Below are positions 26,742 through 46,652 of a DNA stretch of 64,000 nucleotides, piece by piece. The stretch spans positions 1 through 64,000 of the forward strand of contig JAQWSU010000006.1 of assembly GCA_029243025.1 (NCBI GenBank), given 5' to 3'. This stretch comes from Pirellulaceae bacterium (lineage in GTDB: Bacteria > Planctomycetota > Planctomycetia > Pirellulales > Pirellulaceae). A model generated the notes under the pieces. The model had not been told where the DNA came from, did no database searches, and saw only the letters and a list, made by a program, of their open reading frames with translations. A program made the position numbers and the translations under genes. Numbering within the stretch: position 1 is the first letter of the stretch; each line of letters starts with the position of its first letter.

Positions 26742-29700
26742 TCACGGCCCCCCCCCACGTTCAAAGCCTCCACGACTGCCACCCGATTCCCGTCCACTCC
26801 TACGTTCAAAGCCTCCGCGCCCACTGCTTTGGGCTTCCCGAATTCGATTGATGAAATCACTCGCACTGTTTCCACGGCTTTCACCACTTGAACGCGAACG
26901 TTCATTTCTTGAGCGACTCGAGCCCCGATTGGATTCGGAAGAAGATGACGTCGTTGAAGTTTCAACAAGATCACCTAACACGCCCACAAGAGTTTGCTGA
27001 ACAACATACGGATCGGTTCGTTTCAGGTTAACAACTGCGATGCTTTCTGGAGGCTTTTCAGCAGCCCGGCGATCCAGTTCGCGCACCACGGTCTCGACTT
27101 CTTTCAACAGAGGACCGGGTGCGGAGACAACAATTGAGTTGCTTTCGGTATCAACTCCAATCGACATTTTCGGCTGATCACCGGTGGCCGCTTGTTGCGA
27201 ATTTCCACCGCCGCCACGGCGGTCGTCACCCCCACCTCGTCTGCCAAAAAATCCGCCACCCGGGAAACCACCTCGTTGCTCTCGAGATTCACCTTCTCGG
27301 CGACGGTTTTCTTGGCCTGTCACAATTCGGTTCGCATAGACTTCACGTAATACTTTGGCGACTGCCTCAGCATCGGTATACAACACGGGAATAAACTGCG
27401 GCCTCGGGAAGGTCAAGACTTCTTCAGGCCCACTCTCGATATCAATCACCTGCAACAACTGCTTGACCATTCCGACCTGCTCGGGATCCCCATGGACAAA
27501 GAGAGCGTTGAGCCGTTTGTCAGCCACAATGTGGGGTAGGGTTGCGGCAAGTGCAGTGGTTTGCTGCTGCAGCACGCTGTTCACACTGGTTCCTGTCGTG
27601 GCGGTCGCTGTCATCGAAGGCGTAATCCCTGTCAAAATGCTCGTGACCAAGGTGCTGGCTGTTTCGGCCTCGATGTGCTTCAAGTAGAACAGATTAAATC
27701 GCGGACCCGCCGCAGCCGCCGAGGATGAAAAGGCCTCGACCAACGACTGAATGGCATTCAGTGCCTCAGTATCCTTCGAGCTGATCATCAGTCCATCGGG
27801 AGTTGCCGCAATCATGACCGGCGCAACCGATTCGGAACTATCCGCGGCCTGCTCTGTAGGCTGGCTAGCCTGCTCGGCCCCTGTCGCTTGAGCAAGCCCT
27901 GACTCGGGAAGATCTACCACCAGACGTGTCTCGAACAAGGAAGACTCTGGAGAGACGGCTTGTTCTGTTTTCTTGACCGGGTCGGATTCCGAATCTTGAG
28001 GTCGCCTTTTCTGAGGTCGATCCGATTCCCGTCGACCGGGCTCCATCTCCCGTGTCGGACGGCCTTGCCGCGAACGACGATCGCGAGGGCCATCGGAATG
28101 CAAACGCTGCAACTGCAGCAATCCTTGCTCCTGACTTGGGATCACAACTTTAATTTCGTTGCGACGTAGATTCGGCCAAATAGTACGAATTCTGTCGATT
28201 GCCATGGCAGCCGTTTCCGCTGACATGGGAATCATCCGTACATTGCCGGTCCGAGAAACTCGAGTTCTCCCAGCGAATCCACCCACCCTAGCTCGTTCAC
28301 CAATGTCATCGAGCAACAAACGAATCTGTTCGATCTGGGCCTGCGACCCCCGCACAACCAGTTGTGGCGGAATTAGCGTTCCGTCCACGACCGGAGGTTT
28401 TTGCGTCGAGCTGAATAATTTTTCAACGAGCGTAATTGCTGCTGCCGGATCGGTGTATTGGAGCGGAATGACTTGGACCCGTTCTGGGTTTTGCTCCATC
28501 TCCGCAATCGTGGCTTGTATCGAACGATGTTGAGAAGGTGTAGCGAAGGCGATAATGCCGCCGGTACTCGAATCCACTTCCAAACGCAGCCCAGCATCAC
28601 CAACAAACAGTGTCTGTAACACGCGCAATACCGATTCTGGATCGGCGGTCGCCACCTTGTGAGACATGAATTGAGACAGTTCTTCCGCCCCACCACTGGA
28701 TTGAGTCGTGTTGGGTGAATCGATTTCACGCACGATCTGCTCAACCAATTGGATCTTTTCTTGCTCGCCAGTCGCAAAAACGGTACGGCCCAACGGATTG
28801 GCTGATATGCGGATCGAACCATCTTCCGATGCAAATTGTTCCTCTTCGATACCAAGCAACGGTCGCGCAACGGCCAGGATTTCGTCAGCCGAGGCAACCT
28901 TTAAGGGAAAGGCATGCAGTTTACCCTTTTCCTGTTCCGCAGCCGTTTTTTCCAGGGAAATCAAAATTTCCTGAATCGTCCGCAAATTACCCGCGGTTTC
29001 CGTTGCCAGAATCTGCTTGGCACCTGGCATTACAATAATGGAACCAACCGGACTTAGCAGTTGATTGATCTGCTTCTCAGCCTCTGCGGCATCTACCTTG
29101 TCGAGGTTAAAGCGAGTCTTCGTGATTTCGTATTCCCCTCGATCCTTCAAATCGGAGGATGACGTTTCGACCAATAAATCCCGAACGAGTTGAGCGTCAA
29201 GCTCATCTTCGAGATCAATCACCAACAACATTTTTCCTTTTCGAACCAGCGTATACCCTTTGATTAATAAGTAACCATTCACCAGATCGATCGCTTCTTT
29301 CGGCGTGAAGACCTGATCTTCGTCAATGTAATTGAAAGTACCAGAAGGAATCACATCACTCGAAAAGGACAAGTCCGACTCTTCCGCAAGCCACTGCAAC
29401 ACATCATCCCAGGAGGCATATCGAAAACTAAACTTTAACTCGCCGGCTTGACCGGTTGGCTCAAGTGGTTGTTCAGCCGCCTTGGTTTCAGCCGCCTTGG
29501 TTTCAGCCGCCTTGGTTTCAGCCGCCTTGGTTTCAGCCACCTTGGTTTCAGCCACCTTGGTTTCAGCCACCTTGGTTTCAGCCGCCTTGGTTTCAGCCAC
29601 CTTGGTTTCAGCCACCTTGGTTTCAGCCACCTTGGTTTCAGCCACCTTGGTTTCAGCCACCTTGGTTTCAGCCACCTTGGTTTCAGCGCCCGACTCTTGG

Positions 29701-29777
29701 GCAAGCACAGGCTGAATTCCAATCAGTGCACTGAGGGCGCAGCAGATCAAAAGTCGGAACAGTTGACGATGGCTCAT
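26742..29777 (-). CDS. secretin N-domain repeat protein without a secretin barrel
   Basis: 1011 aa with signal peptide (MSHRQLFRLLICCALSALIGIQPVLAQE; another ATG at 29795). A 14-fold ETKVA/ETKAA tract of 70 residues follows, then many GspD-like N-modules (STN/NolW type): LPHIVADKRLNALFVHGDPEQVGMVKQLLQ, VEQEVVNLIR-like helices and repeated IAFATPSQHRSIQATIAEME blocks. Gly/Arg-rich segments occur near 800-850 and at the end (RGGFERGGGP). The C-terminal beta-barrel domain of true secretins, with its VPxLxxIPxLGxLF signature, is missing, so it cannot form the outer-membrane gate alone. It may be a periplasmic scaffold. First gene of the minus-strand group of three secreted proteins. Confidence 0.85.
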   Translation of the reverse strand: MSHRQLFRLLICCALSALIGIQPVLAQESGAETKVAETKVAETKVAETKVAETKVAETKVAETKAAETKVAETKVAETKVAETKAAETKAAETKAAETKAAEQPLEPTGQAGELKFSFRYASWDDVLQWLAEESDLSFSSDVIPSGTFNYIDEDQVFTPKEAIDLVNGYLLIKGYTLVRKGKMLLVIDLEDELDAQLVRDLLVETSSSDLKDRGEYEITKTRFNLDKVDAAEAEKQINQLLSPVGSIIVMPGAKQILATETAGNLRTIQEILISLEKTAAEQEKGKLHAFPLKVASADEILAVARPLLGIEEEQFASEDGSIRISANPLGRTVFATGEQEKIQLVEQIVREIDSPNTTQSSGGAEELSQFMSHKVATADPESVLRVLQTLFVGDAGLRLEVDSSTGGIIAFATPSQHRSIQATIAEMEQNPERVQVIPLQYTDPAAAITLVEKLFSSTQKPPVVDGTLIPPQLVVRGSQAQIEQIRLLLDDIGERARVGGFAGRTRVSRTGNVRMIPMSAETAAMAIDRIRTIWPNLRRNEIKVVIPSQEQGLLQLQRLHSDGPRDRRSRQGRPTREMEPGRRESDRPQKRRPQDSESDPVKKTEQAVSPESSLFETRLVVDLPESGLAQATGAEQASQPTEQAADSSESVAPVMIAATPDGLMISSKDTEALNAIQSLVEAFSSSAAAAGPRFNLFYLKHIEAETASTLVTSILTGITPSMTATATTGTSVNSVLQQQTTALAATLPHIVADKRLNALFVHGDPEQVGMVKQLLQVIDIESGPEEVLTFPRPQFIPVLYTDAEAVAKVLREVYANRIVTGQENRRREGESREQRGGFPGGGFFGRRGGGDDRRGGGGNSQQAATGDQPKMSIGVDTESNSIVVSAPGPLLKEVETVVRELDRRAAEKPPESIAVVNLKRTDPYVVQQTLVGVLGDLVETSTTSSSSESNRGSSRSRNERSRSSGESRGNSASDFINRIREAQSSGRGGFERRSGRESGGSRGGFERGGGP
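29476..29685. repeat. 15-bp minisatellite, 14 copies
   Basis: Unit gccRccttggtttca (R is G or A) repeated 14 times without interruption, 210 bp. It lies within the secretin-like gene and encodes ETKVA or ETKAA on the minus strand. The only variation is one base per unit, meaning recent expansion or gene conversion. Copy number should vary between strains; frame is kept because the unit is five codons. Confidence 0.95.
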
Positions 29778-29795
29778 CGTAGCGAGGTGTGGCAT

Positions 29796-30708: not shown

Positions 30709-31353
30709 ATGACGGATTCGAATCATGAAGTCGACCGAATTCTACAAAGAGTTCGCGACGGCGATCGACAATCTTTAGCGTTGCTGTTTTCCCAGCATCG
30801 AGACCGATTGTGGAACATGGTCAATATTCGGATCGATCGACGGCTAAGAGGTCGAGTGGATCCGGACGATGTGTTGCAAGAAGCCTATTTAGACGCAGCG
30901 GACCGAGTCGACCAATTCATCGTCGATCATTCGGGATCATTTTTTGTCTGGTTGCGTTTGATCGTGAACCAAACGCTGGTGAACGTTCATCGTCGACATT
31001 TAGGCGCGAAGATGCGTGATGCGAAGCGAGATATTTCGATTCATGCAGGCCAACATCAACAAGCGGCATCAACGTCCCTGGCGTTACAACTGCTGGGACA
31101 CTTGACCACGCCCAGCCAGGCGGCCGTTCGTGAAGAAACGGCTCGCAAACTGGAGGAAGTAATCGAAGGACTGGAGCCCATCGATCGCGAGGTACTTGTG
31201 TTACGTCACTTTGAACAATTAACCAACAGCGAGGTCGCCGAGACTCTAGAAATCCAACAGAAGGCTGCGAGCATTCGTTACATTCGTGCGTTAAAGCGAT
31301 TGCGCGACAAGCTTTCTGAGGTTCCAGGCATGGCTACGGAGTGGTTATCCTAA
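30709..31353 (+). CDS. ECF-type RNA polymerase sigma factor (planctomycete subgroup)
   Basis: 214 aa. Region 2 spans about residues 20-90 with RLWNMVNIRIDRRLRGRVDPDDVLQEAYLDAA and FFVWLRLIVNQTLVNVHRRHLGAK; region 4 at 145-205 shows GLEPIDREVLVLRHFEQLTNSEVAETLEI and helix-turn-helix KAASIRYIRALKRLRD. TTPSQAAVREE before region 4 is typical of the ECF type that pairs with Ser/Thr kinases in planctomycetes. ATG 30709 (MTDSNHEVDR) follows AAGGGA; the frame upstream is open but lacks similarity. The kinase gene follows after 28 bp, so they are co-transcribed. Likely activated by phosphorylation through the partner kinase, inferred from families. Confidence 0.92.
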   Translation: MTDSNHEVDRILQRVRDGDRQSLALLFSQHRDRLWNMVNIRIDRRLRGRVDPDDVLQEAYLDAADRVDQFIVDHSGSFFVWLRLIVNQTLVNVHRRHLGAKMRDAKRDISIHAGQHQQAASTSLALQLLGHLTTPSQAAVREETARKLEEVIEGLEPIDREVLVLRHFEQLTNSEVAETLEIQQKAASIRYIRALKRLRDKLSEVPGMATEWLS

Positions 31354-31381
31354 AGCACCGAATCCTACCTAAACAAACGTC

Positions 31382-34246
31382 ATGAACAAACGAACCGACA
31401 AACCTGCAAAGCCACAATCCGCCCCTAGCGAAATCACCGCAGAAAACCCGCATCGCGACCCGGTGGAGGAACTGGCAGCGGAATTCGTCGAACTTCGTCG
31501 CGATGGTGATCGAATAACGATCGATGATTTTGCGAAGGCACATCCCGATTTTGCAGAAGAAATTCGGGAGTTGTTTCCAGCAATTGTGGCGATGGAACGC
31601 TTAAATCGCCGAGTCCAACATGATTCGCGCCCGCTTGTATGCAAACAAGAAATCAATGTCGAACGGCTGGGTGATTTTCGAGTCATTGGAGAAATTGCCC
31701 GCGGTGGAATGGGCATCGTCTACGAAGCCGAACAGGTCAGCCTTGGTCGTCGAGTTGCTGTCAAAGTGCTGCCTAAGCAAGCCTTACGCGGCGAAAAAGA
31801 TGTACAACGATTTCACCGAGAAGCTCAGACCTCTTCCAAGCTCCATCACACCAATATCGTTCCCGTATTCGGTGTTGGTGAGCAGGACGGCATGCATTAC
31901 ATCGTGATGCAGTGCATTCAGGGGGTCGGCCTGGACGAAATCATCTCCGAATTAAAACGGTTAATGCTTGGCTCCACCGGCACGCCAAGCCAGCAGGCCG
32001 ATTTCGATGACGCACGATCCAGCTATGTGAAACGAAACGCGGCAGCTTTATTGAGCGAAAAACTTCGTCACGATTCGCTGACTTCCGACGATGGAGATAC
32101 CGCCCCGGACTCCGGCATGGCGCAATCTCTCCTATCGACCAGCCGTGTCACCGACGGAGTGAGAAGCGATGAGTACAACAGGCCTAAGACGAGTGATCAA
32201 CCAAAACCGCTATCGCCGATCACTGCTCGGATCAACGCAGATTACTGGAAGAACGTCGCATTGATCGGGGTGCAAGTATCCAACGCGCTGCAATATGCTC
32301 ACACCCATCAAACGTTGCACCGAGATGTCAAACCGGGCAATTTACTACTCGATGGAGAAGGCGTTGTCTGGGTCGCTGACTTCGGCTTGGCCAAAGCAGT
32401 TGAACAAGACGATGTGACTTGGACCGGTGACATCGTCGGAACGCTCAGCTACATGGCACCTGAACGCTTTCACGGCGACTGCGACGAACGAAGCGACATT
32501 TACGGGTTGGGCCTTACGCTCTACGAGCTGCTCACTTTTGAGCGAGCTTTCGAGGGCAGTGATCGGGTCGCCTTGATGCACCGTGTGGCGCACGAAATAC
32601 TCCCTTCACCACGCCGACGCAATCCTGGAATACCTCGCGATCTGGAAACCATTGTGATGAAAGCTGCGGCACGCGATCCGAACGATCGTTATCAGTCCGC
32701 AGGGGATCTTGCCACCGACTTACAATGTTTTATTGACGATCGCCCGATCAAAGCAAGACGAGTGAACGTCGCCGAACAACTCATACGATGGTGTCGTCGA
32801 AATCGAGCGGTCGCCAGCTTAACCGCCACCGTCGCCGCACTACTGGTGATCGTCTCGATCATCACGACTTCAGGGTATCTTCGTGAATCAGCACAACGTT
32901 ACCGTGCGGAATCATCGGAGCGAATGGCCTTGGAGGCCTTGGACAACATTTACAGTCAGTTTGCTCCAGGCCCCCTGCAGCTACCAGCTCCTCAAACGAC
33001 GGAGGCTGACACGCGAGACTTGATTGACGACGACGGTGAAAATGAAGAAGCTTTGATGGCGGTTCAAACTCAGTTACCGCTTTCCAAAGATGTGGCCAAA
33101 CTCCTGGACAATCTGCTGTTGTTCTATGATCAACTTTCATCCCAAGCAGGAAACGATCAAAACGTCCTGTTCAAAACGATCAAAGCCCATCGACGAGTTG
33201 CCGATATCAAATCACGACTAGGCGAGTTCGAAGATGCCAAAGCCAGATACCAACGCGCAATAACGCGATCCAAGGCATTCAAGAACAACACCCAAGAAAC
33301 AGCTATCGAATTTGCTCGCATCCACAACGGACTAGGCAGTGTCCTGGTCGCAACACGCGATCGGGAGCAAGCCGTCGAAGCGCACGAACAAGCGTTGGTT
33401 CTGCTGAACAATCAAGCAACATTCCCTGAATCAAAGTATGAATTAGCGCGGACTTTGTATCTGCTACACGAGTCACAACAACGTCCGTGGTGGCAACGCA
33501 AGCGAAACGACAACACAAACCTCGTGGCAATGCAACCTCTCGAGGAAGCCATCGTTTTGCTTGACAAACTCTTGCAAAATCAGCCCGATGTCTCTGAATA
33601 TCGATTTCTATTGGCCAAGTGTTACCGAGCGGTTGCCGAGGCCAAGCGGAATGACGTGTCCGATGCCAACGGCCAAACGATTCAACAACTCGAAAGCCTC
33701 GTCCAACGTTATCCCGATATACCTGACTACCGATATGAATTAGCCGATGCCCATTCAGTAACGGATTCACACTCCCTTCGCTGGAACCGTGACTACTCCC
33801 CCAAACGACTAGCCCTGGCAAACAAACGAGTCGACCGGGCACTCGAAGTCGCCTCAAACATCGACGCTTCGCATCCGAACATTTTGCAATACGTTACTTT
33901 AGCCAGTCGGCTTCATTACACCATGGCCATTGTGAAGCACGCTCAAAACGAAAGAGAACAAGCGCGTCGGCATCTGGATGCGGCGATCGCGAGGCAGGAG
34001 CGTATCCTGCAAGCCCAACCCGACTCTTACATTAAAAAGATGTGGTTGGCCAATCTAAAAGTCGACCTGGCTCAGCTCTGGTCAGAACTTGACCGGCCTA
34101 ATGCGGCCCGAAAAGAACTTGCTCGCATTACGAATATCCTGGGACCACCCGGGAGTGAAAAAAACCAGACTGACAGCGAATTCGTCAAACGATTCACTCA
34201 TAAAATTCGAACACGAGCGGATGATCTTGCCGACTCATTACCGTGA
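31382..34246 (+). CDS. membrane Ser/Thr protein kinase with TPR repeats
   Basis: 954 aa. Residues 28-70 form a helical lead (ELAAEFVELRRDGDR, DDFAKAHPDFAEEIRELFPAI) common to kinases paired with ECF sigma factors. Kinase domain starts at about 97: glycine loop GEIARGGMGIVYEA, K128 (VAVKVL), catalytic HRDVKPGNLLL with D315, DFG at 333-335, GTLSYMAPERF at 353-363. A polar insert of roughly 90 residues (195-285) separates N- and C-lobe parts. One membrane helix near 470-495 (ASLTATVAALLVIVSII) is followed by a large extracytoplasmic part with TPR-like helices (560-945). It follows the sigma gene by 28 bp, forming a signal pair. Confidence 0.93.
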   Translation: MNKRTDKPAKPQSAPSEITAENPHRDPVEELAAEFVELRRDGDRITIDDFAKAHPDFAEEIRELFPAIVAMERLNRRVQHDSRPLVCKQEINVERLGDFRVIGEIARGGMGIVYEAEQVSLGRRVAVKVLPKQALRGEKDVQRFHREAQTSSKLHHTNIVPVFGVGEQDGMHYIVMQCIQGVGLDEIISELKRLMLGSTGTPSQQADFDDARSSYVKRNAAALLSEKLRHDSLTSDDGDTAPDSGMAQSLLSTSRVTDGVRSDEYNRPKTSDQPKPLSPITARINADYWKNVALIGVQVSNALQYAHTHQTLHRDVKPGNLLLDGEGVVWVADFGLAKAVEQDDVTWTGDIVGTLSYMAPERFHGDCDERSDIYGLGLTLYELLTFERAFEGSDRVALMHRVAHEILPSPRRRNPGIPRDLETIVMKAAARDPNDRYQSAGDLATDLQCFIDDRPIKARRVNVAEQLIRWCRRNRAVASLTATVAALLVIVSIITTSGYLRESAQRYRAESSERMALEALDNIYSQFAPGPLQLPAPQTTEADTRDLIDDDGENEEALMAVQTQLPLSKDVAKLLDNLLLFYDQLSSQAGNDQNVLFKTIKAHRRVADIKSRLGEFEDAKARYQRAITRSKAFKNNTQETAIEFARIHNGLGSVLVATRDREQAVEAHEQALVLLNNQATFPESKYELARTLYLLHESQQRPWWQRKRNDNTNLVAMQPLEEAIVLLDKLLQNQPDVSEYRFLLAKCYRAVAEAKRNDVSDANGQTIQQLESLVQRYPDIPDYRYELADAHSVTDSHSLRWNRDYSPKRLALANKRVDRALEVASNIDASHPNILQYVTLASRLHYTMAIVKHAQNEREQARRHLDAAIARQERILQAQPDSYIKKMWLANLKVDLAQLWSELDRPNAARKELARITNILGPPGSEKNQTDSEFVKRFTHKIRTRADDLADSLP

Positions 34247-34396
34247 TCCACTTATTCGCGTCCAATCGGCATCACGAACCAACTATCAATCCAGCCTGCC
34301 AATCACCGGCGATTGGTGGCTCGAAACGAATCCACTCTACGATCAACTCGAAATCGCAGCACGCACAATTCATCGACATACGTGGAGATACAACGA

Positions 34397-35956
34397 GTGA
34401 AACTTTCAACCTGGAGATTCTATCCAACCACGTTGTTGCTCTGCGGCATCGCAATCTGCGACTTGTTCTGCGGCACGAAAGTCTCTGCAGAAAATCGTCC
34501 ACCCAATATTCTGTTCGCCATTTCGGATGATCAATCCTGGATGCATGCGGGCGCCTATGGTGATCAGGCCACCGCAACCCCTGCTTTTGATCGGGTCGCC
34601 CAGGAAGGAGTACTCTTCCAGCACGCCTTTGCCGCAGCACCTTCCTGCGCACCATCACGGAGTGCTTTATTGTTGGGTCGAAACATCTGGGAAATTGGTG
34701 AGGCAGGCGTCCTATTTGGAGTATTGCGGCCCTCATCTCCAGCTTTCACACAACGATTGTGTGAAGCAGGTTACCAGTTGGCGTCCACCGGAAAAACGTG
34801 GGGTCCCGGACGCATCGTCGGTTGGCAGCAATCAAAGGGGCAACAACCGTCATCATTCGCATCGTCGAGTGAGGTGCTTTTTGGAAAAACGTACAATCAA
34901 CAGCAACTGTCGCAGCCACAACCCGGAGTGAACCCAAACGACTATGCCGCCAACTTCGCCAAATTCCTGCAAGAACGCGACCCGTCCCAACCGTTTTTTT
35001 TCTGGTATGGCGCTACCGAACCTCACCAGCGCTACAACCAGGGAGCCTGGAAAAACGCCGGGAAACAGCTTCAGGATGCCCGCCTACCCGGCTGCCTTCC
35101 CGATCATCCGATTACCCGCGGCGAAATACTGGACTACGGATTAGAGATTGAACATTTTGATCGGCATCTGGGACGCATGCTCCAGATGCTGGAGGAGGCC
35201 GGCGAGCTGGACAACACACTCGTCGTTGTCACCAGCGATCACGGAAATCCGTTGCCGCGATCCAAATGCAATCTGTACGACAGCGGAACGCGCGTTCCCC
35301 TCGCCATCCGTCTTCCGGGCGTTATTCCATCTGGGCGGCAAGTAAACGATTTCGTCAACCTCATCGACTTGGCACCCACACTGCTCAACGCAGCGAAGGA
35401 AAAAGTCCCTGCCCAAATGAGTGGCAAAAGCCTCTGGTCGATCTTAACGTCGCATCAGTCAGGTCAAATCGATCCGCAACGAAATTTTGTAGTGACAGCC
35501 ATGGAGCGACACATCATCAGCCGACGCGGATATGTCGGATACCCAATGCGATGCCTACGAACATCCGAATTCAGTTATATCCGCAACGCCGAACCTGATC
35601 GTTGGCCCGCTGGTGATCCCGATTACTTTTCAATCCACCAAGGTTTCTATGGTGATTGCGATCGAGGTGCATCCAAAAAGTTCATCCTGCAAAACGCAGA
35701 GCAACCCGCAGTAAAACCCTTTTTCCAGCGCGCGTTCGGTCGCCGACACGCTGAAGAACTTTACGACATGCGTCAGGATCCACACCAGTTAAAGAACCTG
35801 GCCGAGAACCCACAATTTGCCAGCACCAAGCTGAAACTCGCAACAAAACTTGATGAATACTTGCAGCAGCATGGCGATCCGCGGCAACGGGGTGAAGCAC
35901 CGTGGGACCACTATCGATTCACGGACGAACGCGTCTACTCCAATGAAAGTCGATGA
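34397..35956 (+). CDS. secreted sulfatase (formylglycine type)
   Basis: 519 aa. A GTG start at 34397 with GGAG ahead gives a signal peptide (VKLSTWRFYPTTLLLCGIAICDLFCGTKVSAEN). PPNILFAISDDQSW supplies metal ligands, and SCAPSRSALLLGR is the formylglycine signature (C84 of C-x-P-S-R). VVVTSDHGNPLPRSKCNLYDSGTRVPLAIRLPG holds the second metal and sulfate site. EPHQRYNQGAW is a family block. Secreted sulfatases in marine planctomycetes work on sulfated polysaccharides; specificity cannot be assigned. Located 150 bp downstream of the kinase gene, within the sigma/kinase-bracketed block. The upstream frame beginning at 34313 is also open but lacks a signal sequence. Confidence 0.92.
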   Translation: MKLSTWRFYPTTLLLCGIAICDLFCGTKVSAENRPPNILFAISDDQSWMHAGAYGDQATATPAFDRVAQEGVLFQHAFAAAPSCAPSRSALLLGRNIWEIGEAGVLFGVLRPSSPAFTQRLCEAGYQLASTGKTWGPGRIVGWQQSKGQQPSSFASSSEVLFGKTYNQQQLSQPQPGVNPNDYAANFAKFLQERDPSQPFFFWYGATEPHQRYNQGAWKNAGKQLQDARLPGCLPDHPITRGEILDYGLEIEHFDRHLGRMLQMLEEAGELDNTLVVVTSDHGNPLPRSKCNLYDSGTRVPLAIRLPGVIPSGRQVNDFVNLIDLAPTLLNAAKEKVPAQMSGKSLWSILTSHQSGQIDPQRNFVVTAMERHIISRRGYVGYPMRCLRTSEFSYIRNAEPDRWPAGDPDYFSIHQGFYGDCDRGASKKFILQNAEQPAVKPFFQRAFGRRHAEELYDMRQDPHQLKNLAENPQFASTKLKLATKLDEYLQQHGDPRQRGEAPWDHYRFTDERVYSNESR

Positions 35957-36072
35957 GTCGCATGGCGTTCCAAATTACCGTGTAACAACTCATCCACCTT
36001 TTCGCTGTCTATTCGGGTCGACGATTTCGCTCGACACCGACGCTACCCGTTTGCGAACAAAGGAGGACTGTT

Positions 36073-36618
36073 ATGTTAGGCAAGTTGGCAACGGTGTGCT
36101 TATTCGCCACCACCCTGATCGGCAGCTGCATCATCACAGCAAATGCCGAAACAGGTCGTTTTTTCGGACATCGACGGAATATTAGACGAATCACCTTTTT
36201 TGAACCAACAGTTTCAGCCCAAGCAAAACGGCTCGCCACCGCGGCTGCTGGGTCGTCGTTAAAGTTATCGGGGGATTGCTTCGGCTCGGAATCAGGAAGT
36301 GCCTTTCTCGTCTTCGATAAAGTCACATTACCGGTTCCAATCGACGATTGGCAAGAAACCACCGTCACCGTCACACTACCCCCAATGTTCTTGCGTGACG
36401 CCATCGGGGTTCACATTGATGTGGTGACTCCCCAAGGAAACTTGGCGAAACGCAAATCACTGTTGATGACCCCTCCGACCGAAATCACCAACGGGGAACG
36501 GATCGCCGACTCATCGACCGACGGAAAAGACCAAGACCGTCGTGCGACAAATCACAGTTTTGACGCCCCTTTCACCCATGATACGTCGCTCGGACAATCG
36601 TTCCGTTCCCAGGACTAA
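36073..36618 (+). CDS. secreted IPT/TIG-like protein A
   Basis: 181 aa with signal peptide (MLGKLATVCLFATTLIGSCIITANAE) and a strong AAGGAGG site before ATG. One beta-sandwich-like domain, residues about 58-135: GSSLKLSGDCFGSESGSAFLVFDKV, then IDDWQETTVTVTLPPMFLRDAI, HIDVVTPQGNLAKR. Pattern G-x-V-x-I-x-G-x-x-F-G plus a WxxxxVxVxLP strand matches IPT/TIG immunoglobulin-like folds. It is a diverged paralog of the two genes at 37528 and 44188, which share FLGNQPGSVLMVFNN. No catalytic motif. C-terminal tail is hydrophilic and disordered. Likely an envelope structural or adhesion protein, by fold only. Confidence 0.78.
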   Translation: MLGKLATVCLFATTLIGSCIITANAETGRFFGHRRNIRRITFFEPTVSAQAKRLATAAAGSSLKLSGDCFGSESGSAFLVFDKVTLPVPIDDWQETTVTVTLPPMFLRDAIGVHIDVVTPQGNLAKRKSLLMTPPTEITNGERIADSSTDGKDQDRRATNHSFDAPFTHDTSLGQSFRSQD

Positions 36619-36954
36619 AATGGCTTAGAAACTGCATTTTTCGCCGAAAAATAACGAATGATGCCCAACACTTGCTTCCCAGCAACCGGGTCGCTCTCGA
36701 TCGAGAGCGACCCGGTTGCCATTGATCTTCTCAAGCTCTGAGAACATTAGGTCGAGACGCATATTTTTGCCACGAAGCATTTCAGCCTGCAACAAAGGGC
36801 TTTCCAGCTTTCGATCAGTGGCCAAATCGGGATTCTCTTTTCCCAAAGATCGAGCGTAACAAACCAGAAAGAAGTTCGCTTGCTTTAGTAGAGCCGGTTG
36901 AAAGAGTTTCAACCGCCGCGAAAAACAATGCCTTTGCTTCAAGGGAGACAAATC
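36619..36954. other. 336-bp gap with 38-bp perfect palindrome
   Basis: Lies between protein A and the Gly/Tyr-rich gene. A minus frame at 36625-36951 (108 codons) is open but has no recognised motif, and runs straight through the palindrome, so I do not call it. The last 50 bases before 36955 hold a good ribosome site for the next gene. Confidence 0.5.
36682..36719. repeat. 38-bp perfect palindrome
   Basis: Arm gcaaccgggtcgctctcga (19 bases) is followed directly by its exact reverse complement, with no spacer. It lies 63 bp after the stop of protein A and 235 bp before the next start. No T-run follows on either strand, so a standard terminator is unlikely; as RNA it would form a very stable hairpin on both strands. 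Confidence 0.95.
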
Positions 36955-37314
36955 ATGACCCGTTTCGCAAAAACCGCCCTGCTTACTCTACTCGTGCTCA
37001 GCATCTTCGCTGTTGCTGCGCCAGACAATGCGGAGGCCGGCCGGGGCTGGTACGGTCGCCGCGCCTACGTATCATCCTGTTACACCAGTTACCGACCCAG
37101 CTACGATTATTATTGTGCGCCACAAGTCTACCGATCGACCTATTTCCCGAGATATGATCACTGTGGTTTTGGTGGATACGACAACGGCTGCTACTTTAAC
37201 TACGGCACTTACAGCGGTGCTGGATACCGCGGCTACAACCACTGCTACCCGACCAACTACTACGGTGGCTATGGCAACGGTGGCTATGGCAACGGTGGCT
37301 ATGGTGGATGGTAA
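36955..37314 (+). CDS. small secreted Gly/Tyr/Cys-rich protein
   Basis: 119 aa. ATG 36955 (after AAGGGAGACAAATC) opens a signal peptide (MTRFAKTALLTLLVLSIFAVAAPDNAEAG) followed by a short mature chain. It contains several cysteines (SCYTSY, YYCAP, DHCGFGG, NGCYF, NHCYP) and an end built of GGYGNGGYGNGGYGGW. Low-complexity Gly/Tyr chains often make adhesive or cell-surface layers; the cysteines could crosslink. No known domain. Its position between two IPT/TIG-like genes and its strong expression signals suggest an envelope structural role. A terminator follows at 37346. Confidence 0.8.
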   Translation: MTRFAKTALLTLLVLSIFAVAAPDNAEAGRGWYGRRAYVSSCYTSYRPSYDYYCAPQVYRSTYFPRYDHCGFGGYDNGCYFNYGTYSGAGYRGYNHCYPTNYYGGYGNGGYGNGGYGGW

Positions 37315-37345
37315 TCGAGTTTTGTCTGTGTGCCTTTTTCAACAG

Positions 37346-37379
37346 AGCCGACTGAGGGTTTCCTCGGTCGGCTTTTTTT
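37346..37379 (+). terminator. rho-independent terminator after the Gly/Tyr-rich gene
   Basis: Stem agccgactgagg / cctcggtcggct (12 bp, one wobble) with loop gttt, then seven T. It lies 31 bp after the stop and should make the small gene a separate transcript from protein B. Confidence 0.9.
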
Positions 37380-37527
37380 GTCGGCACAGGTTGATTCTTC
37401 GACTTTCACGCCGATTAAACCGCCCGGCCCGACTGTAACAGATGCCTCTGCTTTTCGCTCAAGAGTGAGGGAGGCATCTGAGCCGAAAACAATCCTCGCA
37501 CTTCTACCTACATAAGGACCCACAGAA

Positions 37528-38466
37528 ATGACTCGCCCAATAGTTACTCTGGCCGCTTTTTTCGTTCTTAGCTCATCAATCTTTGTGGTTGACGCGTCAG
37601 CCGGATGTGGTCGTGGACGTCATATCGGCTGCCGCATTCCTTCTCGACCCGTTGCCGTACGTCACCGACGGCCTCTCCGTCCCGTCGTGATCAAGACACC
37701 CGTTTTAATTCAGCAGCCTATTCGCCAACTACCTACGATCCCGGCGGGTTCCACCTTGACTGTACCCGGCAACTTTCTGGGCAACCAACCGGGCAGCGTG
37801 CTGATGGTTTTCAACAACGTCAAATTGCCAGTACAAATCATTGATTGGAAAAACCACGAAGTCACCATAAAGCTACCTCCCATGGCTATCCGAAAACCGG
37901 TTGTAATTCGTTTGGATATCGTCTTGCCGAATGGTAACTTAGGTTTGACACAGCGAGCCAATGTAACTCCGCCCGCAACCATTCTCTTACACTCCACGCG
38001 GCCGGCTTCGCCGTTGCCAACGATGCCTGCCATTCAATCCAGCACCGTTGCGGCACCAGAGATTGCTCCAGTAGACTCCCACTCGATAACACCGATCACC
38101 TCGAACACTCGGCCAGCCTTCGAAGTCGCACCGCAACTCTCACCCCAACTACCCGCAACGAATCCTCAAACTGCGGGTACACCGGCGGAACCGATTGTGT
38201 TACCGCTCCCAAACGCGACCGGCCCCCAGCCGGGTCTTAATTCAACACAGGGTCTCCCAGGTCAGCCCATCGTCCTACCACCGGTCACAGCTCAACCAGG
38301 CGCGGAAACACCGGGCGTCGTAGCTCCCTCAAGCCATGCTGACCCACTGGAAAACAATCCGATCTTAAACGAGCACCGTTCCCATGGCGCAACAGCCAAC
38401 GAAGCGGCCCCCCAGGGAACTTCCGACAGCTTTTTTTCGATGGTCCGCAACTTATTGAATGACTAG
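37528..38466 (+). CDS. secreted IPT/TIG-like protein B with Pro-rich tail
   Basis: 312 aa; AAGGA precedes ATG. Signal peptide ends near VDASAGCGRGRH, a start shared with protein C (ADASAGCGGRR). Residues about 70-150 are the family domain: GSTLTVPGNFLGNQPGSVLMVFNNV, WKNHEVTIKLPPMAIRKP, RLDIVLPNGNLG. The remaining ~160 residues are proline/threonine-rich (LPATNPQTAGTPAEPIVLP, PIVLPPVTAQ) without a fold, like a surface stalk or spacer. Ends SFFSMVRNLLND, a short helix. It is followed by the minus-strand kinase gene, convergent, with a GC-rich hairpin between. Confidence 0.82.
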   Translation: MTRPIVTLAAFFVLSSSIFVVDASAGCGRGRHIGCRIPSRPVAVRHRRPLRPVVIKTPVLIQQPIRQLPTIPAGSTLTVPGNFLGNQPGSVLMVFNNVKLPVQIIDWKNHEVTIKLPPMAIRKPVVIRLDIVLPNGNLGLTQRANVTPPATILLHSTRPASPLPTMPAIQSSTVAAPEIAPVDSHSITPITSNTRPAFEVAPQLSPQLPATNPQTAGTPAEPIVLPLPNATGPQPGLNSTQGLPGQPIVLPPVTAQPGAETPGVVAPSSHADPLENNPILNEHRSHGATANEAAPQGTSDSFFSMVRNLLND

Positions 38467-38501
38467 CACCGACAGACAATCGTCGCTCAAATCACCAGGT
38501 C

Positions 38502-38523
38502 GCCCCTACCCGGGAAGGGGCGG
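38502..38523. terminator. GC-rich hairpin between convergent genes
   Basis: Stem cgcccct / aggggcg with loop acccggga-like centre, 35 bp after the stop of protein B and 8 bp before the kinase stop. No T-run follows in either direction, so termination is possible but weak or factor-dependent. Confidence 0.45.
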
Positions 38524-38530
38524 CTCTATT

Positions 38531-40837
38531 TCAACCTTGGCCGATATCCTGTAGGGCCAGCAGGTCTTCATCGAGCACACGATGCAACCAGAACATCAGA
38601 CCAAATCCAGCTAATCCAACAAGGCTGGCCGTAATCAAGAATTGACGGTCCTCCATCGCCTCTTGTCCGACGGATTGAGCGAAGAGCAAAATCAAAAGGA
38701 TACCGAGCAACGGCACAAATGCGGTCAAGGTAAGATACAAGCGGTTCAAGCGTCGCAGCCACAACACGTCATTCTGTTGAGGTCCACGAATAATCTCGCC
38801 TCGAATCATGGCCGGAATAAACCAACGGATACAAAGAAGGGTTACCAGGAAAAAGGGATACGTTCCCGCCAAGATTCCGCACAAGGCGGATGAAAGTGCA
38901 AAGTGCACATACACTCCTGCCGAAACCCCACCGTTCAGACCTAGATGTAGGCTAATCGGATAGGCCAGACCGGCAATCAGCCAAAACGAGAGGGCCAGAC
39001 AGGCCATAGAATGACCGAGGAACATCACGTTACTCCCACCCGCGCGAGGCCGCGGACTGGGGGGGTTCTTCAGTGCAAGGGCACAGCGGTAGGCTACGAC
39101 AATTACGATACTGATACCCACAGAAAATGTGATTGCATTAATCAGGGTAGCAAGTAGCAGGAAGAAATCTTCCGCACCAGCCAATTGACTGATGATGCGT
39201 TGGCCATTGTAGAAAAAGTTGAATAACGCCGCGAACAGACTTGGCAACAAAGTTGCTAAGAGTACCGTCAGCGTCGGAAACAACAAGGGAATGCGGCTGC
39301 CCCAATGCTGAGGCGGTTGCAACAATCTCCAACAACGAGGGTTCAAACAAAGACGCAAGGCGTCTGCCAATTGGTTCGCTGATTGAAAGCGCCGCCCATC
39401 ATCAGGTTCCAGGCAACGACGGAGTACATCACGCAACGATGAGGGACAATCCGCCGGCAGAGACTTGATTAACACCTCGAGCTCGACATCCCGGCGACGA
39501 TCGAGCATGCATTGCAGCGAGGCTGCCCAGCCATTTGCCTGCTTCGTTTCATCCTGGAATGGCCGATGTCCTGTCATCAACTCCCATAGCACAATACCCA
39601 GCGAATAAATATCACTCGATTCGCGCACTCGATGGGCCGATCCACCGAGCGCCGGATGGCATGCCTCCAATTGCTCTGGCGACATATAGGCCATGGAACC
39701 ACCGAACGTATCAGTCGGATCTTCGTCTTCGCGTCCAGCTTGGAAACTGATATTAAAGTCGGCCAACTTCGGCGATGCTTCTGAGGTCAGCAGGATATTA
39801 GCTGGCTTGATGTCACGGTGAAGCACTCCCTTTTCATGAGCATAGGCAAGGCCATCTGCTAAGCGACTACCAATCTCACAGATAGCTACTGACCACGTCG
39901 CTTGTCGCAAGGCCAGTCGAATCGCAGACCCTTCGGGCGGTGCCGTTCCTGCCGAAGACAGTCGGCGATCGACCGATTCTAGAATCACCGATCCGCACAA
40001 TTCGGCACGGTCCAGTTCGCTCATTTGATCAACGATATCCTTCAGCGTTCCGCCCGCAACCAATTCCATGTAGAGCAAACGGATAGAGCTACCGCCACTA
40101 CGTTGATCGAACACACGGACAATGTTGGAATGGTCCAGCTGAGCTAACGTTCGAGGTTCCGTCCCCGCACTCTGAGAAATCTTGAGTGCAACCAGTCGTT
40201 CCAACGATCGCTGTCGAGCGAGATAGACAGTCGCAAATGCTCCCTGTCCCAGGGTCATTAGCAGATCAAAATCATCAACCGTGTCACCTTCTTTGATTTG
40301 ATCCAACCGTTTCGAAATCGGATCGACTCGATCCAGGGTTTCAGCCAACCCGTCGGTAAGCATGCCTTCCATTGAATGGTCTGTACCGCTCGGTCGATCC
40401 CCCGGAACCACCATTGTCCCTAACAAAGAGCCCAACTGCGCTGCTTGGGTTGGGAAGCGTTCAAGTACAGTCGCGACGTCCACGTGATCGCCAACCTGCA
40501 TTCGTATCTGAATTTCCTCGCAGATCAAGTCAACTGGCAACTCATCAATCCGGCCTAATTCTGGCAAACTACGCAGATAGAACTCGAGATACTCGGGCGC
40601 ACGTCGATCTTGCCAGCGATATTCCAAATCCACCTTGATCAATTCATGCAAAAGGAGACGACGTTCTTCGACCGGAACATCTTCAACAAATCGACCAATC
40701 TGAGGAAATACCGCATCTTCAGCTATGCAAGACCCCCAGGCCGCAGCCAACAAATCGACCTTTTCCTCCGTACGTTTCCAAAACAACTCATTCGACTGTT
40801 GATTCGCATTAGTGCGGTTAGAATACGAGTCGTTCAT
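38531..40837 (-). CDS. membrane Ser/Thr protein kinase, DFN variant, six TM C-terminus
   Basis: 768 aa. Residues 20-150 are a helical lead of the type found in ECF-linked kinases. Kinase domain from about 187: LMTLGQGAFATVYLA, K219 (VALKIS), HRDIKPANILL with D342, then ADFNISF where the DFG glycine is asparagine (N362), GSMAYMSPEQL at 380-390. The C-terminal 250 residues have about six hydrophobic helices (around 510-540, 555-580, 610-635, 645-675, 700-725, 735-755) and no sensor domain. Divergent from the ECF sigma gene; 64 bp separate their starts, so they likely share a control region. A DFN variant can still bind Mg/ATP, as Asp is kept. Confidence 0.92.
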   Translation of the reverse strand: MNDSYSNRTNANQQSNELFWKRTEEKVDLLAAAWGSCIAEDAVFPQIGRFVEDVPVEERRLLLHELIKVDLEYRWQDRRAPEYLEFYLRSLPELGRIDELPVDLICEEIQIRMQVGDHVDVATVLERFPTQAAQLGSLLGTMVVPGDRPSGTDHSMEGMLTDGLAETLDRVDPISKRLDQIKEGDTVDDFDLLMTLGQGAFATVYLARQRSLERLVALKISQSAGTEPRTLAQLDHSNIVRVFDQRSGGSSIRLLYMELVAGGTLKDIVDQMSELDRAELCGSVILESVDRRLSSAGTAPPEGSAIRLALRQATWSVAICEIGSRLADGLAYAHEKGVLHRDIKPANILLTSEASPKLADFNISFQAGREDEDPTDTFGGSMAYMSPEQLEACHPALGGSAHRVRESSDIYSLGIVLWELMTGHRPFQDETKQANGWAASLQCMLDRRRDVELEVLIKSLPADCPSSLRDVLRRCLEPDDGRRFQSANQLADALRLCLNPRCWRLLQPPQHWGSRIPLLFPTLTVLLATLLPSLFAALFNFFYNGQRIISQLAGAEDFFLLLATLINAITFSVGISIVIVVAYRCALALKNPPSPRPRAGGSNVMFLGHSMACLALSFWLIAGLAYPISLHLGLNGGVSAGVYVHFALSSALCGILAGTYPFFLVTLLCIRWFIPAMIRGEIIRGPQQNDVLWLRRLNRLYLTLTAFVPLLGILLILLFAQSVGQEAMEDRQFLITASLVGLAGFGLMFWLHRVLDEDLLALQDIGQG

Positions 40838-40901
40838 GTTTCAATCCGACGTTGGCCAACCTTTGAGTGAAGCCGAAAATCAGCCGCCAGGAGTCACCAC
40901 G

Positions 40902-41513
40902 ATGACCGGATCTGAACAAGTCATGCGAAAACGTTTAAAGGACGGCGATCGCGACGCACTGGTAGAGTACATTCAAAACAATCAACCGGCACTGCTCGCT
41001 TTCATCAACAAGCGAGTTGGCAAACACCTGCTCAAAAAAATCGAGCCTGACGATATTCTACAGGAAGTCAGCGTCGAAGCGCTACGCGCATTTGACAAGA
41101 TCGAAATTGGGGATCGAGAGCCACTCAATTGGCTGTTTCACATCAGCGAGCGGAAAATCATCGACGCGCATCGCCGGTTTTTTTCCAGTCAAAAGCGAGA
41201 TGCTTCTCGCGAAGTGGCGATCGGCGGCGAAGGGAGCCAAGCGGGAATCGGCTTGGGTAACCTCTTGGCTGCTAGCATGACGACACCCAGCCAAGCGTTC
41301 TCACGTGATCAAAAACAATTACGCATGCTCGCTGCGTTAGACACGCTCCCTGAAGAACAGCGAGAAGCACTTCGCTTGCGTTACTTGGTCGGCTTGCCGT
41401 CCAAAGAGATCGCCCAGAAGCTCGGCAAGTCCGATGGTGCGATTCGTGTCATGCTCTCTCGCGGCCTGAGTCGCCTACAGCAATTATTGTCAGACGAGAC
41501 GCTCAGACCGTAA
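40902..41513 (+). CDS. ECF-type RNA polymerase sigma factor
   Basis: 203 aa. ATG 40902 follows GGAG at eight bases. Region 2: LLAFINKRVGKHLLKKIEPDDILQEVSVEALRAFDKI and PLNWLFHISERKIIDAHRRFF. Region 4: LDTLPEEQREALRLRYLVGLPSKEIAQKLGKSDGAIRVMLSRGLSRLQQLL, with a complete helix-turn-helix. MTTPSQAFSRDQ before region 4 mirrors TTPSQAAVREE of the other sigma factor in this window, so both belong to the same planctomycete ECF class. Divergent from the DFN kinase. The stop lies 15 bp from that of the ThuA gene, convergent. No anti-sigma factor gene is present; control by the kinase is inferred. Confidence 0.93.
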   Translation: MTGSEQVMRKRLKDGDRDALVEYIQNNQPALLAFINKRVGKHLLKKIEPDDILQEVSVEALRAFDKIEIGDREPLNWLFHISERKIIDAHRRFFSSQKRDASREVAIGGEGSQAGIGLGNLLAASMTTPSQAFSRDQKQLRMLAALDTLPEEQREALRLRYLVGLPSKEIAQKLGKSDGAIRVMLSRGLSRLQQLLSDETLRP

Positions 41514-43954: not shown

Positions 43955-44187
43955 CTGAAAACCTCTCGCGTCAAAACGGAACGAAAATCGAGTCAGATCG
44001 GGCTCAACCGCTCCCTTGCGTCGATTTGCAAGCCAGGGCCGAATAGCCAGAAAACAAGCTGGAAGTATAACGGTTTTTCAAATTATTTCTCTGCCGTTGT
44101 AACATCCGACAAGTTACTTCGCTGAATATTCCATGGAGTCACACCATTTCAGCAAAGCAAACATTTTTCGACCAAGGAGACTTAATC

Positions 44188-44748
44188 ATGGCCCGCAAAA
44201 TCATTGCACTTTCCACCCTTTTCGCCCTCACTTTCGCTATTTTCGCAGCTGACGCGTCAGCCGGCTGTGGCGGTCGTCGCCGTAGCTACCACCATCACCA
44301 CAATTACGTCCGCCCGATAAGGTTCGTTCAGCCCATCCTGCACCATCATGTGACTCCCCCACAAGTTGCGATTGCACCCCCCATCGTTGCTCCAGAGCCT
44401 CAATTTCCCGTAGTCCCTTCCGGATCGACAATCACGATCCCCGCCAACTTCCTTGGCAATCAACCCGGCAGCGTCTTGATGGTCTTCAACAACATCAAAC
44501 TACCGGTGAGAATCAACAATTGGACCATGACAGGAGTGACCGTCACTCTGCCACCAATGGCGATCAAAGAAGCGGTTTTAATTCGCCTAGATGTGTTATT
44601 GCCGCAGGGTCAGTTAGGACGCACACAGAAGATTCGTGTCACAGCGCCCGCACCCGTGGTATTACACCCAACGGCTCCGATTTCACCGTTGCCAACCAAC
44701 CCTGCTCTCCAGGCACAAAATCAAGCCGCAGCAATTTTGGGTGGCTAA
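44188..44748 (+). CDS. secreted IPT/TIG-like protein C
   Basis: 186 aa; AAGGAG before ATG. Signal peptide (MARKIIALSTLFALTFAIFAADASAG) then CGGRRRSYHHHHN, a histidine patch. The domain (residues about 78-155) is very close to that of protein B: GSTITIPANFLGNQPGSVLMVFNNI, WTMTGVTVTLPPMAIKEA, RLDVLLPQGQLGRTQK. The stretch PTAPISPLPTNPAL also matches B (STRPASPLPTMPAI), so B and C are recent paralogs; C lacks the long Pro-rich tail. Histidines could bind metal. Separated from B by 5.7 kb holding the kinase, sigma, ThuA and rhaA genes. Has its own terminator. Confidence 0.82.
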   Translation: MARKIIALSTLFALTFAIFAADASAGCGGRRRSYHHHHNYVRPIRFVQPILHHHVTPPQVAIAPPIVAPEPQFPVVPSGSTITIPANFLGNQPGSVLMVFNNIKLPVRINNWTMTGVTVTLPPMAIKEAVLIRLDVLLPQGQLGRTQKIRVTAPAPVVLHPTAPISPLPTNPALQAQNQAAAILGG

Positions 44749-44844: not shown

Positions 44845-44869
44845 GCCCCCGAGGCGTAACATCGGGGGC
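44845..44869 (+). promoter_or_regulatory. second hairpin in the protease leader
   Basis: Stem gcccccga / tcgggggc around a nine-base loop, followed by tccttttcg. It lies 22 bp past the terminator and 61 bp ahead of the protease ATG. It may be a weaker back-up terminator or a leader structure; nothing decides between these. Confidence 0.4.
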
Positions 44870-44930
44870 TCCTTTTCGCTCTTGATCCTATGGCTTCCCT
44901 CTCCATCTCTCAATCAAGGAGTGCACACCG

Positions 44931-46652
44931 ATGTTCACCTCCCCCACCCTCGCATCCCCGCAGCGGAACATTATCTTGGCCATGTTGCTCGTCATGACCA
45001 CTTCGACGGCTGCCATCGCCAACAGTCAGGTTTACCAACAATTGCTTAAGTCTTCGGCAATGATCGTTGCCGGCGACCGTTTTGGCAGCGGCGCGTTAGT
45101 GGACGCAGAACATCGACTGGTTTTCACCAACTATCACGTTGTGGGTGAAATGGACGACGTCCGGGTAGTCTTTCCACAGCATCAGAACGGCAAACTCCGA
45201 GCGGATCGACACGGCAGCATTCGCGAGCTTGACAGCATCAGCTTCGCGGGCAAGGTGGTAGCTCGTGACCTTCGCCGCGATCTCGTCTTAATCGAAGTTG
45301 AATCCATTCCAGCCGGCACCGTCGAGATTCCACTCGCCGCAGAGAGTGTTTCGCCGGGAGAGCGCGTACATTCGATAGGGAATCCAAGCGCAAGCAGCGC
45401 CATGTGGGTCTATACATCCGGGACGGTTCGGCAGGTCTATCATAAGCAGTATCAATTGGATGATTCTCAACAAGTGGATGCGCAAGTTGTTGAAACCCAA
45501 GCTCCCATCAACCAAGGTGACAGCGGAGGTCCGGTCGTAAACAACAACAATGAATTGGTTGCAATCGTGTCCGCCACCTCGAATGACAGCAGCTTGGTCA
45601 GTGTTTGCATTAACGTGAACGAACTCAAATCGTTGCTGAACGGCGAAAACAGCACGATTGATCTCCCGGTCAAGAGCATGCTGGACGAACTCAATCTGAA
45701 TTACGAACTCAAATCGACTGGAGATTTCACTGTCGATGTGCCCGCAAATGACGGCGACTTTGTTCGCGTTGAGATCGATGCCGAGACGCACCTGTTCGAC
45801 GGGCGTAGGATTCGCCAAATCCGTGCGCTCCTCAAGAGTTTTGAAAACGATATGCCTGCTTCGCTGCTGAGCGATTTAATGATCGACAACAGTCAACGCA
45901 AGTTCGGCAACTGGGAAGTCTGGCCGCTCAAAGACGAACAACGCGTTTATTTTCGAGTCGATCTTGATCGGGATACCAATATCGACAACGTGAAATCGAT
46001 GATACGGGGCGTGGCGTTGGTGACACAAGCGATGCGCAACCAACTCACCACCGCCAACCAAAAAGCACAATCGGATACAAGGCCCGCGGAACTCATGGGA
46101 ACCTGGGTCGCTAGTCGATTGAATTCGAGCGGTACCAAAGTCGCCTACGCCGTATCGCTGAACCGAGACGGATCCTACCACTGGTATGTAAGTGACGGTG
46201 GTGACAAGCCACTCCTAGAAGATCGTGGCAAGTTCAGCATCAACGACCAAACAGTGACGTTCAAGAACGAGCAAGAAGCGTTCTCAGCCAAGCTCAGAAT
46301 CGTCAATCAAAATCAGATTGCGTACGAATCGAAAAGTCTTCAGTTCACGATGAACCGTTATGTCGGTCCTGCAACCGCTCCAGATTTGAGCGGCCGATGG
46401 GCGACGATCATCCAAGTGGCCAATGGCAATTCGGTCAGCTACACACTCGAATTAAAAGCGGAAACATTGACCTGGACCATCCAGTCGGAAAACCAGGATC
46501 CGATTATCATCTCGGGGCCCTATCAACTCGAAGGCGACAAACTAACCTATTCGACAGACGGCAACTCATTCGTCGCCGACGTGTCGCTCCAAGACAGTGA
46601 GACGCTGATTTACAAAGACCCGACCAACTCACTCTTCCTGAAGCGAACTTAG
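44931..46652 (+). CDS. secreted trypsin-like serine protease with two C-terminal beta repeats
   Basis: 573 aa. Signal peptide around residues 13-30; AAGGAG before ATG. The first 240 residues are an S1C (DegP-like) protease: FGSGALVDAEHRLVFTNYHVV (H69), ARDLRRDLVLIEV (D117), QAPINQGDSGGPV (S198). No PDZ domain follows. A linker domain (240-380) comes next, then two similar modules: ELMGTWVASRL...GSYHWYVSDGG...GKFSINDQTVTF and DLSGRWATIIQ...LTWTIQSENQDP...YQLEGDKLTYS. These resemble lipocalin-like TIGR03066/67 modules, by eye. Likely processes or surveys envelope proteins. It follows protein C and may act on that family (inference). Confidence 0.9.
   Translation: MFTSPTLASPQRNIILAMLLVMTTSTAAIANSQVYQQLLKSSAMIVAGDRFGSGALVDAEHRLVFTNYHVVGEMDDVRVVFPQHQNGKLRADRHGSIRELDSISFAGKVVARDLRRDLVLIEVESIPAGTVEIPLAAESVSPGERVHSIGNPSASSAMWVYTSGTVRQVYHKQYQLDDSQQVDAQVVETQAPINQGDSGGPVVNNNNELVAIVSATSNDSSLVSVCINVNELKSLLNGENSTIDLPVKSMLDELNLNYELKSTGDFTVDVPANDGDFVRVEIDAETHLFDGRRIRQIRALLKSFENDMPASLLSDLMIDNSQRKFGNWEVWPLKDEQRVYFRVDLDRDTNIDNVKSMIRGVALVTQAMRNQLTTANQKAQSDTRPAELMGTWVASRLNSSGTKVAYAVSLNRDGSYHWYVSDGGDKPLLEDRGKFSINDQTVTFKNEQEAFSAKLRIVNQNQIAYESKSLQFTMNRYVGPATAPDLSGRWATIIQVANGNSVSYTLELKAETLTWTIQSENQDPIIISGPYQLEGDKLTYSTDGNSFVADVSLQDSETLIYKDPTNSLFLKRT

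Follow-up and report, generated by a model that had tools for sequence, protein, structure and literature searches.

A predicted two-box ECF-type promoter upstream of five exported-protein genes in a Pirellulaceae bacterium and its proposed link to the sigma/kinase pair SIG2/KIN2

The window analysed, a 64,000-nt stretch of DNA from a Pirellulaceae bacterium (genome G000), contained two ECF sigma/Hanks-type kinase gene pairs, one of which, SIG2/KIN2, is predicted with a probability of about 0.78 to be a kinase-linked pair driving five genes for exported proteins. These five genes, TIG1, GYC, TIG2, TIG3 and PROT, were each preceded by the two-box sequence GTAACA-N13-TTCGCT, the first base of which lay 75–99 nt before the start codon. 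Simple, heuristic rules served to call ORFs and signal peptides, and the genes of the locus were as follows:

SIG1, 30709..31353, + strand, ECF sigma, plancto1-like, with PF07638/TIGR02984 matches; a neighbour of the regulon
KIN1, 31382..34246, + strand, Hanks-type kinase with one TM and a TPR-like C-terminus, in an operon with SIG1
sulfatase, 34403..35956, + strand, PF00884, without the motif upstream and missing from the G004 locus; no member of the regulon
TIG1, 36073..36618, + strand, secreted TIG-like protein
GYC, 36955..37314, + strand, secreted Gly/Tyr/Cys-rich protein, also found downstream of KIN1 in G004
TIG2, 37528..38466, + strand, secreted TIG-like protein
KIN2, 38531..40837, - strand, Hanks-type kinase with DFN for DFG and a multi-TM C-terminal domain, divergent from SIG2
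SIG2, 40902..41513, + strand, ECF sigma, candidate reader of the motif
TIG3, 44188..44748, + strand, secreted protein with a predicted IPT/TIG fold (AlphaFold model)
PROT, 44931..46652, + strand, secreted trypsin-like protease, PF13365

The first-pass annotation had listed both sigma/kinase pairs, the sulfatase, two TIG-like genes and GYC, all of which were confirmed with small corrections, and had correctly placed a third TIG-like gene and a protease just outside the two pairs. The helical lead domain that it had described as common to KIN1 and KIN2 was not recovered, the best local match between the two being 21% over 42 aa (E=0.22). The start codon of SIG2 is probably that at 40902, an alternative ATG at 40836 being one that would overlap the start of KIN2. 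At least seven other ECF genes of the same genome adjoined a gene for a Hanks-type kinase, and thus sigma/kinase neighbourhoods are ordinary in this bacterium. Rfam and tRNA scans of the whole window gave no match. Upstream of SIG1, a secretin-like secreted protein (26742-29795) had a signal peptide followed by a run of more than 10 AETKV/AETKA repeats; the alignment with its ortholog in G004, a second genome of the same genus, started only past this repeat stretch.

TIG1, TIG2 and TIG3 were the only relatives detected for one another in their own genome. At the level of sequence profiles, Pfam TIG (PF01833) was touched by 1 of 14 aligned TIG-like members, a match that was not significant (E=0.08). 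The model of TIG3 contained a confident beta sandwich (residues 73-155, pLDDT about 90), for which the best PDB match was CGTase (cyclodextrin glycosyltransferase) residues 506-582, with a Z of 9.7 and 2.0 A over 75 residues, followed by Rel-homology dimerization domains with a Z of about 8.3. The matched CGTase region and the Rel dimerization domains are taken here to be TIG-type domains, and an IPT/TIG fold (Ig-like beta sandwich) is supported for TIG3 at the level of the predicted structure.

The predicted ECF-type promoters were located at the following positions:

motif of TIG1, 35982..36006, + strand
motif of GYC, 36856..36880, + strand
motif of TIG2, 37435..37459, + strand
motif of TIG3, 44099..44123, + strand
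motif of PROT, 44856..44880, + strand

These 5 exact sites compared with 0.02 expected per shuffled window (dinucleotide shuffles), and the whole 8.35-Mb genome contained the same 5 and no other, with 0 for the reversed-pattern control. Given that the shuffle rate allowed 2–3 chance sites genome-wide, the absence of exact sites elsewhere is mildly notable, while the placing of all 5 upstream of five secreted genes in a 9-kb stretch is far beyond chance. Among spacers of 5 to 25 nt, 13 alone recurred. As the five window genes had served to define the motif, the independent tests of it were the rest of the genome, other genomes, and the contrast between genomes with and without SIG2. The first-pass annotation had proposed a search for a shared -35/-10 motif upstream of 36073, 36955, 37528 and 44188; such a motif was present at all four and also at 44931. 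Its idea of one regulated envelope programme gained support from this motif common to the secreted genes. With a high degree of confidence, the motif is predicted to be the ECF promoter of the five genes.

TIG1, TIG2 and TIG3 are paralogs, and one might suppose that gene duplication had multiplied a single upstream region into the five sites and that these are devoid of regulatory meaning. However, neither GYC nor the protease is related to the TIG genes, the motif was kept in other genera, and outside both boxes, including the sequence between them, the five upstream regions shared 20–30% identity, being about as alike as random DNA. Thus, the sites did not arise by a recent duplication, and this explanation is largely refuted and extremely improbable.

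Upstream of the other nearby genes, among them the sulfatase and the two sigma and two kinase genes, the best sites had at least 4 mismatches. Autoregulation is common for ECF genes, and a point against the SIG2 reading is that it was not seen here; for SIG1, SIG2 and KIN2, autoregulation through this motif was rejected, since the best match in their upstream regions had 5 mismatches in 12 positions. A one-mismatch site at 33758, inside KIN1 and 621 nt from the sulfatase start, was regarded as chance. The 5′-leaders of the targets had no common structure, and GYC was the only one with a modest hairpin (z -1.84). The putative GYC leader (36886-36954) can fold into the hairpin CGGTTGAAAgaGTTTCAACCG, and a related sequence occurred at the same place in G004 despite the decayed promoter there. 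At TIG2, a 10-bp inverted repeat, CAGATGCCTC ... GAGGCATCTG (37439-37480), extended across the promoter spacer and the start region and is possibly an operator.

The two genomes of the genus bear on which sigma reads the motif. In G004 (6.8 Mb), SIG1 (77% identity), KIN1, GYC, the secretin-like gene and the downstream genes were retained in order, whereas SIG2, KIN2, TIG1 to TIG3 and PROT were absent from the genome and the locus was without the sulfatase. Neither an exact nor a relaxed motif site was present genome-wide in G004, and the region upstream of its GYC contained the degenerate GTAGCA-N13-TCCGCT. The joint loss of a sigma, a kinase and four of the five targets, with a fifth promoter that has decayed, matches what a regulon deprived of its sigma would leave behind; loss in G004 is simpler than gain in the window's genome because the targets, like SIG2 and KIN2, occur widely in the family. 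On these comparisons and those given below, SIG2 is probably the sigma of the motif promoters.

That SIG1 reads the motif, or that both sigmas do so with the two pairs jointly controlling the block, is favoured by the adjacency of SIG1-KIN1 and GYC in the two genomes of the genus and by the membership of both sigmas in the same plancto1-like group. This is nevertheless improbable, because SIG1 persisted in G004 without a relaxed site and without four of the five targets, and the Blastopirellula-type genomes G079 and G106 possessed the motif and targets with no SIG1 match at E<=1e-40; nor did SIG1 co-occur with the TIG proteins or with the class-A proteins described below. The order SIG1-KIN1 was kept in G004 and in seven of the eight other genera read, and in the eighth SIG1 lay on a 4-kb contig without KIN1. 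The first-pass annotation had regarded the two pairs as enclosing the programme; this was not supported, since SIG1/KIN1 persists in the same genus without the TIG genes, protease and motif, the span between the pairs leaves out two of the five targets, and the enclosed sulfatase lacks the motif. SIG2/KIN2 looks to be the only pair tied to the motif and the enclosure by two pairs coincidental.

The comparison covered a sample of 119 genomes of the family. In 10 or more other genera the motif lay before genes for TIG proteins, for Gly/Tyr/Cys-rich proteins and for related proteases. TIG homologs of three further genera had it at the same place, exactly in G063b and G050a and with 1–2 mismatches in five more. 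Secreted Gly/Tyr/Cys-rich proteins with a CYTSYWGC-like end, designated as class A, flanked SIG2/KIN2 in Blastopirellula-type and Rhodopirellula-type genomes; their genes carried the motif, ending 89–105 nt before the start codon, and in 11 of 19 genomes were no more than 3 kb from KIN2. Where class A was located elsewhere, as in G011 at a distance of two megabases, the motif was still present. Gene order, the loss of which the first-pass annotation had named as counting against its idea, was not kept in relatives; in other genera, however, the promoter accompanied the targets even where these are unlinked, and the regulon is thus independent of gene order. Secreted trypsin-like proteases related to PROT had the motif upstream in several genera, and clustering of all ORFs downstream of relaxed sites gave three large groups, made up of 25 TIG and other secreted proteins, 22 class-A proteins and 12 trypsin-like proteases. 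GYC was rejected as a homolog of Blastopirellula class A, the two sharing no significant alignment (E=0.38) and being alike in composition and promoter only; likewise, the class-D Gly/Pro-rich targets of other genera were rejected as TIG orthologs, their C-terminal half being lipocalin-like and without a TIG look. As judged from the sequences compared, the target set is kept in kind across genera while individual protein families are swapped.

Several further sites were observed in individual genomes. In three Blastopirellula-type genomes (L123:386-1459, L128:381-1454 and L133:615-1688), the motif lay about 110 nt before a non-secreted MSTAMELD... protein, a possible cytoplasmic member of the regulon. 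The motif at L260:7920-7944 was 44 nt before SIG2 itself, this being the sole relative with a site upstream of SIG2, and in L204 a sigma-like gene followed it after about 47 nt; both sites hint that some species have autoregulation or a cascade. Two class-A genes flanking SIG2/KIN2 (L270:5315 and L270:9442) had identical promoters and the same N-terminal sequence, suggesting a recent duplication or gene conversion. G094 encoded two copies of a secreted 159-aa protein (L189:412-888 and L190:414-890) with the motif about 50 nt upstream; no SIG2 was detected in this assembly, which is 84% complete, and the sister genome G117 has SIG2.

Among the 19 genomes with class A, KIN2 was present in all 19 and SIG2 in 18 (p about 1e-9 by genome; p=1e-4 for class A versus KIN2 by genus), while SIG1, found in 13 of the 19, had no association (p=0.23); the sampled genomes are related, and these p values ignore phylogeny and overstate independence. 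G056 (85% complete) encoded TIG and class-A proteins and KIN2, yet no SIG2 was detected. Raw whole-genome counts of the relaxed sequence GTAACA-N14-YCGCT did not separate genomes with SIG2 from those without it, and only the sites before secreted ORFs did so: an RBS and a signal-peptide ORF followed 25 of 59 relaxed sites in SIG2-positive genomes versus 4 of 40 in SIG2-negative ones (Fisher p=3.6e-4), the positive set leaning towards one genus and taking in the five window sites. Many of the 34 sites in SIG2-positive genomes that failed this criterion are probably chance occurrences. At 80 named SIG2 loci in public genomes of the class Planctomycetia, the flanks contained 22 motif sites versus 3 reversed controls, most of the sites being before secreted ORFs; the motif-bearing loci include those of Blastopirellula marina, Rhodopirellula baltica and Planctomycetes bacterium CA13. 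No motif was present within 8 kb of SIG2 for close SIG2 relatives such as those of Lacipirellula and Adhaeretor, indicating that targets are located elsewhere or that specificity differs there.

It could also be that the motif is the site of another transcription factor or another ECF sigma, and that its link to SIG2 reflects shared ancestry of the genomes. The genome encodes more than 10 further ECF genes and the link of SIG2 to the motif is a comparative one, but the two-box geometry is of the ECF promoter type, and the targets adjoin SIG2/KIN2 in several genera and vanish together with the pair in G004. Such a factor is accordingly given little weight, and SIG2 is retained as the likely reader of the motif.

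SIG2 is a protein of 203 aa with matches over cut-off to PF08281, PF04542 and TIGR02937 (88.8 bits), that is, an ECF (group 4) sigma with domains 2 and 4 only. Linkers of ECF sigmas are usually not conserved; in the linker between domains 2 and 4 of SIG2, T127, P129, S130 and S134 were invariant among nine orthologs, and this TxPSxxxS stretch is noted as a lead, a phosphosite there being conceivable from sequence conservation though less than an even prospect. The first-pass annotation had observed the sequence TTPSQA in both sigmas; it is present in both, but does not serve as a mark of this locus, T[ST]PS[QR]A being the rule among SIG1/SIG2 relatives. Region 2.2 of SIG2 reads EPDDILQE, keeping the acidic ExxDxxQE, with D51 and Q54 invariant in the same nine orthologs. 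KIN2 possessed HRDIKPAN, and DFN replaced DFG in KIN2 as in each of the 19 relatives read, the metal-binding Asp being retained; DFN is a family signature that may influence kinase activity. The C-terminal membrane domain of KIN2 had 8 predicted segments.

In the proposed mechanism, KIN2, anchored by its multi-pass C-terminal membrane domain, would respond to a cue at the membrane by phosphorylating and so activating SIG2, the phosphosite possibly being the linker TxPSxxxS. Active SIG2 would then bring RNA polymerase to the GTAACA-N13-TTCGCT promoters, and the genes for three TIG-domain proteins, one Gly/Tyr/Cys-rich protein and one trypsin-like protease would be transcribed, each from its own promoter. 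The exported products presumably act in the cell envelope, as suggested by their signal sequences, composition and TIG fold.

Control of SIG2 by KIN2 is considered probable from gene neighbourhood. KIN2 lay beside SIG2 in 57 of the 80 named loci and, besides these, in many sampled genera, and no recurring anti-sigma-like gene was seen among the neighbours read by eye. Both observations speak against the alternative that SIG2 reads the motif and KIN2 is not its activator, in which case SIG2 would be controlled through its own expression or by an unlinked anti-sigma and the kinase would serve another output. This alternative, rather unlikely yet the least so of those weighed here, is favoured by the kept ExxDxxQE, with which binding of core polymerase need not require phosphorylation, unlike in ECF43. 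Region 2.2 of ECF43 sigmas is without the acidic residues (DAED/DxxDxxQE), and phosphothreonine takes their place (PMC8999054). Since SIG2 keeps these residues, an ECF43-like phosphothreonine mode in region 2.2 is unlikely. With KIN2 kept as the probable regulator, a broader picture can be drawn tentatively, and with less than even confidence: a conserved planctomycete surface-protein regulon of a non-ECF43 type, in which the DFN-containing, multi-pass KIN2 would switch SIG2 via the linker TxPSxxxS and not via region 2.2, and SIG2 would drive exported Gly/Tyr/Cys-rich, TIG or lipocalin-like proteins and a trypsin-like protease across Planctomycetia.

Kinase-linked ECF groups of planctomycetes have already been catalogued. 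ECF59, ECF61, ECF62 and ECF217, with members including Rhodopirellula proteins, are planctomycete ECFs for which Ser/Thr kinase control was predicted from synteny; these groups are uncharacterised, their mechanism still to be worked out (PMC8999054). SIG2 resembles them in being planctomycete and kinase-linked, a likeness by kinase synteny. Neither a promoter or regulon for these four groups nor the promoter and regulon described here were found in the literature searched. The promoter, unique in the genome, the five targets and a conserved set in cultured relatives (Blastopirellula marina and Rhodopirellula-type strains) make one such pair testable, and they offer a starting point for learning how planctomycetes control the exported Gly/Tyr/Cys-rich and TIG proteins of their unusual envelope.

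Among NCBIfam models, TIGR02984 (Planctomycetaceae-specific sigma-70 subfamily 1) was the best match of both SIG1 (181 bits) and SIG2 (132 bits), each below the curated cut-off of 183.75. The ECF43 systems EcfP/PknT of Vibrio parahaemolyticus and EcfK/PknS of Xanthomonas citri are similar to SIG2/KIN2 in that the sigma is encoded beside a transmembrane Hanks-type kinase with no anti-sigma gene (PMC13147305). They differ in that ECF43 sigmas lack the acidic region 2.2 residues kept in SIG2 (PMC8999054), KIN2 has DFN and a multi-pass membrane domain unlike the ECF43 kinases, and the ECF43 outputs are T6SS or polymyxin resistance versus a predicted regulon of secreted TIG, Gly/Tyr/Cys-rich and protease genes for SIG2. 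The closest published promoter, GTAAC(g,a)-N14-15-(c,t)CG(t,a), is that of EcfF (ECF16) from Bradyrhizobium japonicum, for which primer extension verified one case (PMC3420878). Its architecture is near-identical to the GTAAC-N16-CGCT found here; EcfF is encoded in an ecfF-osrA unit and counts among the reactive-oxygen-inducible ECFs of that study, and the likeness is one of promoter and not of group membership.
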